Of a stretch of DNA of 64,000 nt, positions 35,287 through 37,494 are shown piece after piece; position 1 is the stretch's first letter, and the number at the start of each line of letters is the position of its first letter. The stretch comes from Planotetraspora kaengkrachanensis (GTDB lineage Bacteria > Actinomycetota > Actinomycetes > Streptosporangiales > Streptosporangiaceae). Below the pieces are notes generated by a model. That model did no database searches. It was not told the DNA's origin and saw only the letters and a program-made list of their open reading frames with translations. Made by a program: the position numbers and the translations under genes. The DNA lies in the NCBI RefSeq assembly GCF_016862895.1, contig NZ_BONV01000002.1:186001-250000 (forward strand), given 5' to 3'.

Positions 35287-35619
35287 GCCGGCAAGCGGAT
35301 TGCCCGCGAAGTGCAGATTCATTTCCGTGCTCACCCGCCCTGCGCTCGTGTGCTGAACGACGTTCGACATACGGTGCGGAACTCATACCCCGCGGGTGGG
35401 GATGCCGTCCGCGCCGCGAATGATCGGATGCGTAAATGATTGGTCGTGCCCTGCCATCACGCCGGCCAAGGCCACACTCGTCGTGCGGCGGCGGCCCGTT
35501 TAACGGCCCGCCATGTTGAATCGGCATCAGAGAAGCGTCAACGTCTCTTGCCGGGGAACTTCCCGTACCTCCATAGTGAATTCCCGGACGAAATCAAGCA
35601 CCCGGAGGGGAGGGAACCC
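35287..35619. other. Long intergenic leader, no gene supported
   Basis: No conserved frame found; alternative longer starts of the secreted-protein gene lie at its left end. It contains a small hairpin (CCGTTTAACGG) near 35490-35512. Together with 35704-35955 it forms the long leader before the Ro60 gene. Confidence 0.3.
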
Positions 35620-35703
35620 ATGGCGCCACGGAGTCTCCGTGAGGACGTCTGCCGCGAGCGTGTTCCCTCTCCGTTTGTGCCCGTCCGATGTCGCGTCCCC
35701 TAG
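35620..35703 (+). CDS. Short ORF (27 residues) with a very strong ribosome-binding site
   Basis: GGAGGGGAGGG sits just upstream of ATG 35620. The peptide is basic with two cysteines (VCRERV and RCRVP) and unrelated to anything I know. It could be a leader peptide within the Ro60 transcript, or chance. Confidence 0.35.
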   Translation: MAPRSLREDVCRERVPSPFVPVRCRVP

Positions 35704-35955
35704 CAGGACGCCTGTTCAGGTGACGGACTCTGCCTCGTCGAGGCCGACCCGCACCGCGCCGTGACCACGAGTACGTGATCCGGCGGACATGGCCTCCCGG
35801 TGAACGCCCTTGGCCGGCGAACGGGGACGCGACTGGGCACGGCGCCCCTCTGTCACCATGCCTCCGGCATTCACGGAGAAATCCGGTGACTCATTTCGGG
35901 AGGCCCTTTTCCGAGGGCGGGAACAGGTTTCCCGTCCATTAATGGAGAAAGGTCC

Positions 35956-37368
35956 ATGACCACACCTCACTCCCTCGCACCTTCAGCCGTCACAACAGCC
36001 AAGAGGGAACTGTTCCTGCTCGCCGCGCGCGCTTTGGCCGACGGCGACGCGCGGGATCTGGGCGACCGGTTCGCCGCCCTGACCGGTCAGCTGGCGATCG
36101 CCGAAGACACGTGGGTGCGCGCCCTCATCGACTGGACCCGCCGGCAGCCCGCGCTGCGCCGGCTCGGCATCGCGCTCACCGTGGAGTTCGTCCATGCGCG
36201 GACGGCTGCCGGGGTCGGCACTCCCGGCGAAACCCGCGAGCTGATCGGCACCCTGCTGACCCGCCCCGACGAGCCGGGCGAACTGCTCGCGCAGTGGCTA
36301 CGCAGTCACGGCCGCTCGATCCCCAAGGCGGTGAAGGCGGGCGTGGCCGACGCCGCGGAGCGGCTGTACGACGAAGTGGCGCTCGCCACCTACGACACGG
36401 CGGACACCGAGATGCGCTTCGCCGAGGTGATCGCCCTCACCCATCCCAAGCCCGTGGGCAAGATCCAGAACGAGACGTTCCAGCACGCGGCGCTCCGCCG
36501 GCGCGGCTCGCACCCCGTGCCCGAGTCGCTGACGACCCTTCGGGCGCGGGCCCAGCTGCATGCCGTACCGGCCGACAAGCGTCCGCGCATGCTCGACCGT
36601 CCCGACATCGCCGACGCTTTCGCGCAGGCGGCCATGTCCTGGCGAGAGGTACGCGCCTGGCTGGGCGGCTCGATGACCGACAAGGCATGGGCCACGGTCG
36701 TCGCCCGGATGAGCTACCGCGACCGGATGGAGCACCTGCGCGACTTCGACCAGACCGACCTGGCCGGCGAGGTCGCCGACCGGATCTCGGCCGACCTGGC
36801 CGACAAGGCGTCGGTGGCGCGCGGCGGAGCCCTCCCGGTGGAGATCCTGGCCGCGTACCGGTCGGTCCCCTCGTCACGCTGGTCGTCGGTGCTCGAGCAG
36901 GCCCTGGACCATGCGCTGGCCGAGGTCCCCGCCCTGCCCGGTCGCACGCTGATCCTGGTGGATCGCAGCAAGGCGATGCTCGAACCGTCCTTCGCCGGGT
37001 CGGCCCTGACCCGAGCGGACGCGGCGGCCGTCTTCGGGGCCGCCCTCGCACTGCGCGCCGCCTCCGCCGACCTGGTCGAATGCGGGCAGGTCACCGGGCC
37101 GGTGACGTTCGAAGGCGCCGGCCGCCTGATCGACGCCGTCGGCCGCTTCGGTGAAACGGGTGGCGCTCAGACGGTCGCCGAGGCCCTGCGCGAACACGTG
37201 AAGGGACACGACCGCGTCGTCGTCCTCACCCACCACGGCGCCGCCGTCGAAGCGGCGGAGGCCGTGACCGTGCCCGGTCACGAGCACATCATCACCGACG
37301 TCACCGACGGCTGGTTCGCCGCGATCACGCACATCGAGCGGGCGCGCACCGACGCCTGGCCCTTCTGA
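35956..37368 (+). CDS. TROVE domain protein, bacterial Ro60 orthologue (Rsr-like)
   Basis: A 470-residue Ro60-type RNA-binding protein. The N-terminal ring of helical repeats starts near residue 15 and includes ALIDWTRRQPALRRLGIAL and a TRAQ-like LTTLRARAQLHAVP; the LTHPKPVGKIQNETFQHAAL segment is a TROVE landmark. The C-terminal von Willebrand A domain begins TLILVDRSKAM: the MIDAS Asp and first Ser remain, but the second Ser of DxSxS is Ala, so metal binding may be weak. Ro60 binds misfolded RNAs and Y RNAs. GGAGAAAGG precedes ATG 35956. It forms an operon with the bL37-like gene 10 bases downstream. Confidence 0.88.
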   Translation: MTTPHSLAPSAVTTAKRELFLLAARALADGDARDLGDRFAALTGQLAIAEDTWVRALIDWTRRQPALRRLGIALTVEFVHARTAAGVGTPGETRELIGTLLTRPDEPGELLAQWLRSHGRSIPKAVKAGVADAAERLYDEVALATYDTADTEMRFAEVIALTHPKPVGKIQNETFQHAALRRRGSHPVPESLTTLRARAQLHAVPADKRPRMLDRPDIADAFAQAAMSWREVRAWLGGSMTDKAWATVVARMSYRDRMEHLRDFDQTDLAGEVADRISADLADKASVARGGALPVEILAAYRSVPSSRWSSVLEQALDHALAEVPALPGRTLILVDRSKAMLEPSFAGSALTRADAAAVFGAALALRAASADLVECGQVTGPVTFEGAGRLIDAVGRFGETGGAQTVAEALREHVKGHDRVVVLTHHGAAVEAAEAVTVPGHEHIITDVTDGWFAAITHIERARTDAWPF

Positions 37369-37378
37369 AAGAGAACGC

Positions 37379-37456
37379 ATGTCCAAGCGCGCCCGCAAGA
37401 AGCGCACCCGTAGGAAGAAGAACGCCAACCACGGCATGAAACCCGGCCACGGCTGA
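37379..37456 (+). CDS. bL37-like ribosomal microprotein (25 residues)
   Basis: ATG 37379 is 10 bases behind the Ro60 stop. The peptide opens SKRARKKRTRRKK and ends in NANHGMKPGHG. From memory this is the pattern of actinobacterial large-subunit protein bL37 (about 24 residues, basic stretch then ANHGKRP), first seen in the mycobacterial ribosome structure. Here the Lys-Arg after Gly is Met-Lys and the end differs, so it may be a paralogue. A strong terminator begins 6 bases after its stop, so it ends the Ro60 operon. Confidence 0.7.
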   Translation: MSKRARKKRTRRKKNANHGMKPGHG

Positions 37457-37462
37457 GGTTCG

Positions 37463-37494
37463 GGGGCTCCGGCGCTCCCCTGCGCCGGAGCCCC
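37463..37494 (+). terminator. Rho-independent-type hairpin after the Ro60 operon
   Basis: GGGGCTCCGGCGC and its exact complement flank a 6-base loop (TCCCCT). Thirteen GC-rich base pairs; no U-tract, as common in actinomycetes. It also serves the convergent kdpD end at 37534. Confidence 0.85.

Follow-up and report, generated by a model that had tools for sequence, protein, structure and literature searches.

A gene for a predicted Ro60/TROVE-fold protein is recurrently followed by a putative bL37 paralog in four genera of Streptosporangiaceae

Background

Animal Ro60 binds misfolded pre-5S rRNA (PMC11277228), and the Ro60 ortholog of Deinococcus assists the maturation of 23S rRNA (PMC4030889, PMC4726728). 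The vWA domain of Ro60 carries a MIDAS motif of the form DxSxS...T...D (PMC11277228). In Salmonella, a Ro60 homolog is encoded in the rsr-yrlBA-rtcBA RNA repair operon (PMC7790460). The canonical ribosomal protein bL37 occupies a pocket close to the peptidyl-transferase centre, made of the 23S helices H39, H40, H72 and H89 (PMC5876184), and lies under the tip of the 5S rRNA (PMC10085706); a synthetic C. acnes bL37 also inhibited Staphylococcus in disk assays (PMC10085706). The portions of the bL37 literature considered here describe structural roles and this antimicrobial test, and no tested ribosomal role. Bacteria are also known to possess zinc-regulated C-/C+ pairs of ribosomal protein paralogs.

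Here we describe an actinobacterial locus that combines these known kinds, a predicted Ro60 protein and a putative bL37 paralog. Their combination was not found in print: the literature searched, which had preprints and most subscription papers outside its scope, contained no report of a TROVE/Ro60-bL37 pair, nor of any ribosomal protein encoded with Ro60.

Layout of the locus

The earlier note on this DNA had described a Ro60 gene followed, 10 bp past its stop, by a basic peptide of 25 residues and, 6 bp further on, by a perfect 13-bp terminator. In the 64,000-nt stretch of Planotetraspora kaengkrachanensis DNA analysed here (the window), both reading frames are present as claimed, with 10 nt between the stop of the first gene, which we name TROVE-A, and the ATG of the peptide, MSKRARKKRTRRKKNANHGMKPGHG (Table 1). 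The hairpin was recomputed with 13/13 positions paired and a 6-nt loop; it begins 6 nt past the peptide stop and is without a T-run. Among the 11 copies of the peptide found behind TROVE-A genes (hereafter the linked copies), nine are followed within 70 nt by a perfect repeat of 10-16 bp; that of G210 is a perfect repeat of 8 bp, and none was found downstream in G657. The right-hand neighbour of the pair is a KdpD-type kinase gene (kdpD) on the opposite strand, and a domain search places a SUKH-type gene upstream.

Table 1. Positions of the features of the locus within the window
Feature	Position	Strand	Basis
TROVE-A (predicted Ro60/TROVE-fold protein, 470 aa, vWA with degenerate MIDAS)	35956..37368	+	phmmer, profile, predicted fold, motif table
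Putative bL37 paralog, linked type, 25 aa	37379..37456	+	NF047428 match, solved-ribosome chain matches
Perfect 13-bp inverted repeat 3' of the peptide	37463..37494	+	arms 37463-37475 / 37482-37494
Alignable upstream region of ~435 bp, ending in a start-proximal hairpin (about 35915-35938)	35520..35955	+	

The region ahead of TROVE-A is alignable across the two loci of the source genome (G000) and four other Planotetraspora species. Its start-proximal hairpin is present in seven Planotetraspora copies, six of which were folded, and possibly serves translational control; it is not obvious in G119, G210, G276 and G657, and the G161 sequence starts at a contig edge. RNAalifold gave a covariation term of +1.77 for the region, which is no support, with both-sided changes in 12 of 122 pairs, and neither a coding reading nor a Y RNA could be demonstrated there. 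Rfam at E<=5 returned five matches, none of which reached its gathering score, a result that leaves room for a Y RNA; the best by E-value was BjrC68, at 24.3 bits of 39, over the peptide end and the downstream hairpin. The window gave neither a tRNA nor a tmRNA with ARAGORN.

TROVE-A and its degenerate metal site

The name Ro60, as used in the earlier note, is upheld by matches to a solved TROVE protein and by the predicted fold, and not by any family assignment: Pfam and NCBIfam give no family for the 470-aa protein at E<=10, including PF05731 (TROVE) and the NCBIfam Rsr model. With phmmer the protein matches the solved TROVE protein 9l5y/9kop at E=1.1e-5, and a profile of 11 sequences reaches E=2.8e-13 against it. 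The AlphaFold2 model was built from six sequences only and is of modest quality (pLDDT 61.6, pTM 0.50, mostly low over the first 190 residues). All 13 PDB chains that Foldseek retrieved with it at E<=0.001 are nonetheless Ro60/TROVE proteins, Ro60 with misfolded pre-5S rRNA among them, and VIA-align gave ten Ro60 rows with Z of 13.9-17.9, the next row having 8.1 (rmsd ~5.5 for residues 190-464, but 14-17 for alignments over the whole length). We accept for the window protein a predicted Ro60/TROVE fold, that is, a helical-repeat ring with a vWA domain. The histidine of its THPKP motif presumably corresponds to H187 of Ro60. That residue is treated in PMC4030889.

The replacement of the second MIDAS Ser by Ala (DRSKA), reported earlier for this protein, is right and understates the change. 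D336 and S338 are kept (D336-R-S338-K-A), but in (T/S)DxQ the Asp has likewise given way to His, and the Thr is lost or displaced. In a motif table of 73 distinct TROVE proteins, 16 form such a MIDAS-less set: the first Asp of DxSxS is kept in all, the second Ser in 0/16, the Asp of (T/S)DxQ is His in 16/16, the Thr is missing or shifted (with the alignment unsure in two rows), and the first Ser is altered as well in four. The remaining 57 have DxSxSM without exception and (T/S)DxQ in 56/57, the one deviating protein (L092) diverging from the other rows past the MIDAS. Judged from these motifs, the TROVE clade of the window protein has lost most of its vWA metal site.

A tree was computed for 44 rows of this table, namely the 16 MIDAS-less ones and every second of the rest, with L067 and L092 dropped and G657 left out; on it the MIDAS-less proteins form a clade with an SH-aLRT support of 100. 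The clade divides into TROVE-A (11 rows, 10 of them linked to bL37) and TROVE-B (five rows, all unlinked), both with a support of 99. Linkage to bL37 requires two changes on this tree, which is consistent with one gain and one loss, their order being unproved. TROVE-B genes come after the TROVE-A/bL37 pair in G161 and G119 (L059:1387-3531 and L060:4581-5948) and have no bL37 of their own; in G210 a second TROVE gene after the pair is cut by the contig end. A related TROVE-B (L069, G097) carries, where the MIDAS would be, a long insert of repetitive, Pro-, Arg- and Ser-rich sequence.

The linked peptide as a putative bL37 paralog

The peptide had been called bL37-like in the earlier note, which named profile similarity as a test, and its score of 35.3 bits with NCBIfam NF047428 (50S ribosomal protein bL37) exceeds the cut-off of 30 bits. 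Chains of bL37 in solved ribosomes are matched as well (8crx_V, E=6.4e-4; 7kgb_v, 0.003; 5o60_3, 0.0051). Of six among the ten distinct linked peptides compared by hmmscan, four pass the cut-off (35.3 for the window, 35.2, 34.3 and 31.7) and two fail it (29.0 and 25.4); the stand-alone bL37 of P. kaengkrachanensis, encoded apart from TROVE-A, scores 38.4 bits. Linked peptides have 10-13 Lys/Arg per 25 residues and mostly retain the N-terminal half, with ANHG in most copies. S2, K8, R11 and R12 are common to all 11, and position 20 is M, H or R, whereas stand-alone bL37 mostly has G or A at position 2, S or G at 8, K at 12 and K at 20. The C-terminal ANHGKRP occurs in 21/21 stand-alone copies, which we chose from the family scan and all of which were read, as against 0/11 linked copies, and in two of the latter the motif Gly is replaced by Arg. 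By these sequence features the linked type is a distinct, diverged bL37 paralog, some members of which fall under the NCBI cut-off. Given the missing ANHGKRP and the Arg in two of the 11, the linked peptides may not bind the pocket of canonical bL37.

This divergence raises the question whether the peptide has left the ribosome altogether and become a basic RNA-binding cofactor of TROVE-A, either an RNA annealer or a partner in the ring cavity. The loss of KRP favours such a departure from the ribosome, the motif being present in 21/21 stand-alone copies read, as do the density of Lys and Arg and the tight pairing with a single TROVE subtype; the largely kept N-terminal half, the ANHG of most copies and a window copy above the equivalog cut-off speak against it, and we regard it as unlikely. 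Far less probable still is an antimicrobial or other extracellular peptide. Its small size and strongly basic character do recall the synthetic C. acnes bL37 active on Staphylococcus (PMC10085706), but no signal-like hydrophobic stretch is seen by eye in the reading frame, domain searches of a few neighbours revealed no export gene, and its partner belongs to an RNA-binding protein family.

Distribution of the pair

We scanned 297 and then 341 genomes of the Streptosporangiaceae, scoring the best few candidates per genome, so that all counts are lower bounds. Full-length TROVE-A is present in at least 12 copies and at least 10 genomes of four genera among the 341 (G000 and G002 with two each, G001, G003, G004, G119, G161, G210, G276 and G657); the named relatives, Streptosporangiaceae by NCBI taxonomy, are Planotetraspora phitsanulokensis, P. 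mira, P. silvatica and P. thailandica. A linked bL37 follows 11 of the 12 copies; the two genes overlap in G210 and G657, with the start codon of the peptide falling within the 3' end of the TROVE-A gene. The pair is thus recurrent in four genera, all but one of the full-length TROVE-A genes having the peptide behind them. The association extends beyond the source genome; uniqueness to that genome was one of the findings that the earlier note had named as refuting its idea. Like the source genome, G002 carries the pair at two different loci.

The twelfth copy, in G276 (L061, C49), is full-length and has no bL37 behind it; a reading frame at the place of the peptide, starting MSERAGVEKRR, may be a decayed remnant, and this TROVE-A is also without the THP histidine. 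Two broken genes, in G097 (C11; L173, only the first 110 positions) and G270 (C477; L174, in separate pieces), stand outside the 12 full-length copies and resemble TROVE-A; no bL37 was found in the 3 kb examined near either. It looks, from these three loci, as if TROVE-A and the peptide decay together.

Linkage of bL37 to TROVE genes in general was rejected: in a local scan of 90 loci, many of which overlap or repeat one gene, with flanks of ~1.5 kb as a rule and shorter at contig ends, bL37 lay beside TROVE-A genes only. A TROVE match was obtained in 99 of the 297 family genomes. Most of these, and likewise most bL37-bearing genomes, are without the pair, which must therefore be dispensable. 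Among 394 genomes of the class, some of them from the family, the first profile gave no TROVE match above 390 bits except the source genome's own two.

So patchy a spread (10 of 341 genomes, a lower bound) would suit an accessory cassette without a ribosomal role, and the second TROVE gene after the pair in three genomes, the two different loci in G000 and G002 and the broken copies fit this as well. No mobility gene, however, was recognised by eye in the neighbour gene lists, few of whose members were domain-searched, and the neighbourhood is partly common to G161 and Planotetraspora, and we think such a hitch-hiker quite improbable. A bacterial PH-domain protein is encoded behind the C44-type pair, genes with similar starts follow the pair in G003, G002 (C39), G001 and G161 and not in G004, and a Band 7 protein is encoded behind TROVE-B in G161.

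Selection and translation of the peptide

Over ten linked copies the pooled pS is 0.37 and pN 0.14, the pairs not being independent; between genera the raw amino-acid-changing differences outnumber the synonymous ones and are lower only as a rate per site. Variable sites by codon position number 4/4/12 of 25 in the seven Planotetraspora copies (p=0.013) and 13/10/19 in all 11 linked copies, which is not significant (p=0.07). Translation of the peptide is indirectly supported by the excess of pS over pN, by a purine-rich stretch seen by eye ahead of its ATG and by the two genomes in which it overlaps the TROVE stop. A chance reading frame is ruled out by the recurrence behind 11 of 12 full-length TROVE-A genes, together with pS > pN and the same overlap.

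bL37 copies within and among genomes

The earlier note had proposed looking for a second bL37 gene in the source genome, and two were found. Three bL37-like genes there match NF047428 and the window peptide: the window copy, a copy on contig C44 behind a second TROVE-A that is 72% identical to the window protein, and a stand-alone gene on contig C28, MGKRQRKSKARKKKKANHGKRPTGR, which is probably the housekeeping copy. A fourth match to the peptide (E 1.29) has an internal stop and was disregarded. The genome's third TROVE gene, on contig C4, is 42% identical and matches Pfam TROVE PF05731; no bL37 was found in the flanks scanned (usually ~1.5 kb, shorter where a contig ends).

NF047428 is matched at E<=0.01 in 148 of the 297 family genomes. 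More than one match occurs in eight of the 148 (G000-G004, G119, G161 and G210), and all eight carry TROVE-A and the linked peptide. In the class sample, a match at E<=0.001 is found in 261 of 394 genomes, of which nine contain at least two: G000 and eight in which TROVE-A was not found (G341, G424, G457, G498, G600, G621, G626 and G652). Duplication of bL37 therefore also occurs without TROVE-A. Because the profile detects no bL37 in half of the family sample, absence of the gene should not be read from these counts. The two matches of G341 are on two contigs.

A stand-alone bL37 is present in all nine TROVE-A genomes tested (G657 being outside that scan). In the five genomes with the stand-alone gene and a 5S rRNA gene on one contig (G016, G264, G050, G172 and G076), the two lie ~18-22 kb apart, and the housekeeping bL37 may occupy a constant position close to one rRNA operon. 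As to whether 5S rRNA heterogeneity might account for two bL37 types, the Planotetraspora drafts have one 5S rRNA match or none each, and G161, a genome with 7% contamination, has two lower-scoring partial ones.

The stand-alone copy elsewhere in the source genome provides what the idea of an alternative bL37 requires. On this idea the peptide would be a condition-specific bL37 of the 50S subunit, and TROVE-A would merely be needed at the same time, with no common substrate or contact. The bL37 core retained in the linked peptides favours such co-regulation, and alternative ribosomal-protein paralogs are a known form of bacterial regulation. Against it, the link has outlasted duplication, is found in four genera and goes as far as overlap in two genomes, which is more than loose co-regulation needs, and the KRP motif of the stand-alone copies is gone from the linked peptides. 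We consider it possible, though not probable.

Possible function of the pair

Our preferred reading, held tentatively and with somewhat less than even confidence, is that of a two-gene unit in which a Ro60 paralog without the metal site and a dedicated bL37 paralog would act together on 5S/23S rRNA or the 50S subunit. The function of TROVE-A is inferred here by analogy to distant Ro60 proteins (12-20% identity). TROVE-A and the linked bL37 would be translated from a shared mRNA under conditions that call for the assembly, rescue or quality control of 50S subunits; the HEAT-repeat ring of TROVE-A would capture misfolded or unassembled 5S/23S rRNA, and the linked bL37 would then occupy or chaperone the rRNA region of canonical bL37 (5S tip, H89), the vWA domain without its MIDAS serving as a scaffold rather than as a metal-dependent ligand site. 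That both proteins act on the same rRNA region would be the simplest reading, given the site of canonical bL37, the binding of misfolded pre-5S rRNA by Ro60 and the part played by the Deinococcus ortholog in 23S maturation. A more specific form of it, a Ro60-guided assembly or repair of 50S subunits in which TROVE-A recognises misfolded 5S/23S rRNA and delivers bL37 beside the peptidyl-transferase centre to give distinct stress ribosomes, we find rather doubtful.

The pair may point to a unit dedicated to assembling or repairing ribosomes in some soil actinobacteria and could represent ribosome heterogeneity with a built-in RNA chaperone. As a recurrent combination, it makes the action of bacterial Ro60 proteins on ribosomes accessible to direct tests.

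Comparison with known systems

TROVE-A resembles the bacterial Ro60/Rsr of Deinococcus (2nvo) and vertebrate Ro60 (1yvr, 1yvp) in its predicted helical-repeat and vWA fold and, presumably, in the THPKP histidine, with 12-14% identity in the Foldseek alignments. Unlike them, it has no Pfam TROVE or NCBIfam Rsr match, its MIDAS is degenerate and its downstream partner is a putative bL37. The linked peptide is in turn like the NF047428 bL37 of the M. smegmatis, M. tuberculosis and C. acnes 50S subunits in its length, its basic N-terminal half and its ANHG region.

As in the Salmonella rsr-yrlBA-rtcBA operon (PMC7790460), a Ro60 homolog is encoded here with another RNA-related gene, although the TROVE-A locus gave no Y RNA match and neither rtcA nor rtcB was recognised among the few domain-searched neighbours. 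Like the zinc-regulated C-/C+ paralogs, the linked bL37 is a second copy of a ribosomal protein besides one encoded elsewhere. It differs from them in that both the stand-alone and the linked bL37 are without zinc-site cysteines (two linked peptides have a single Cys), and in that its partner is a Ro60 homolog.
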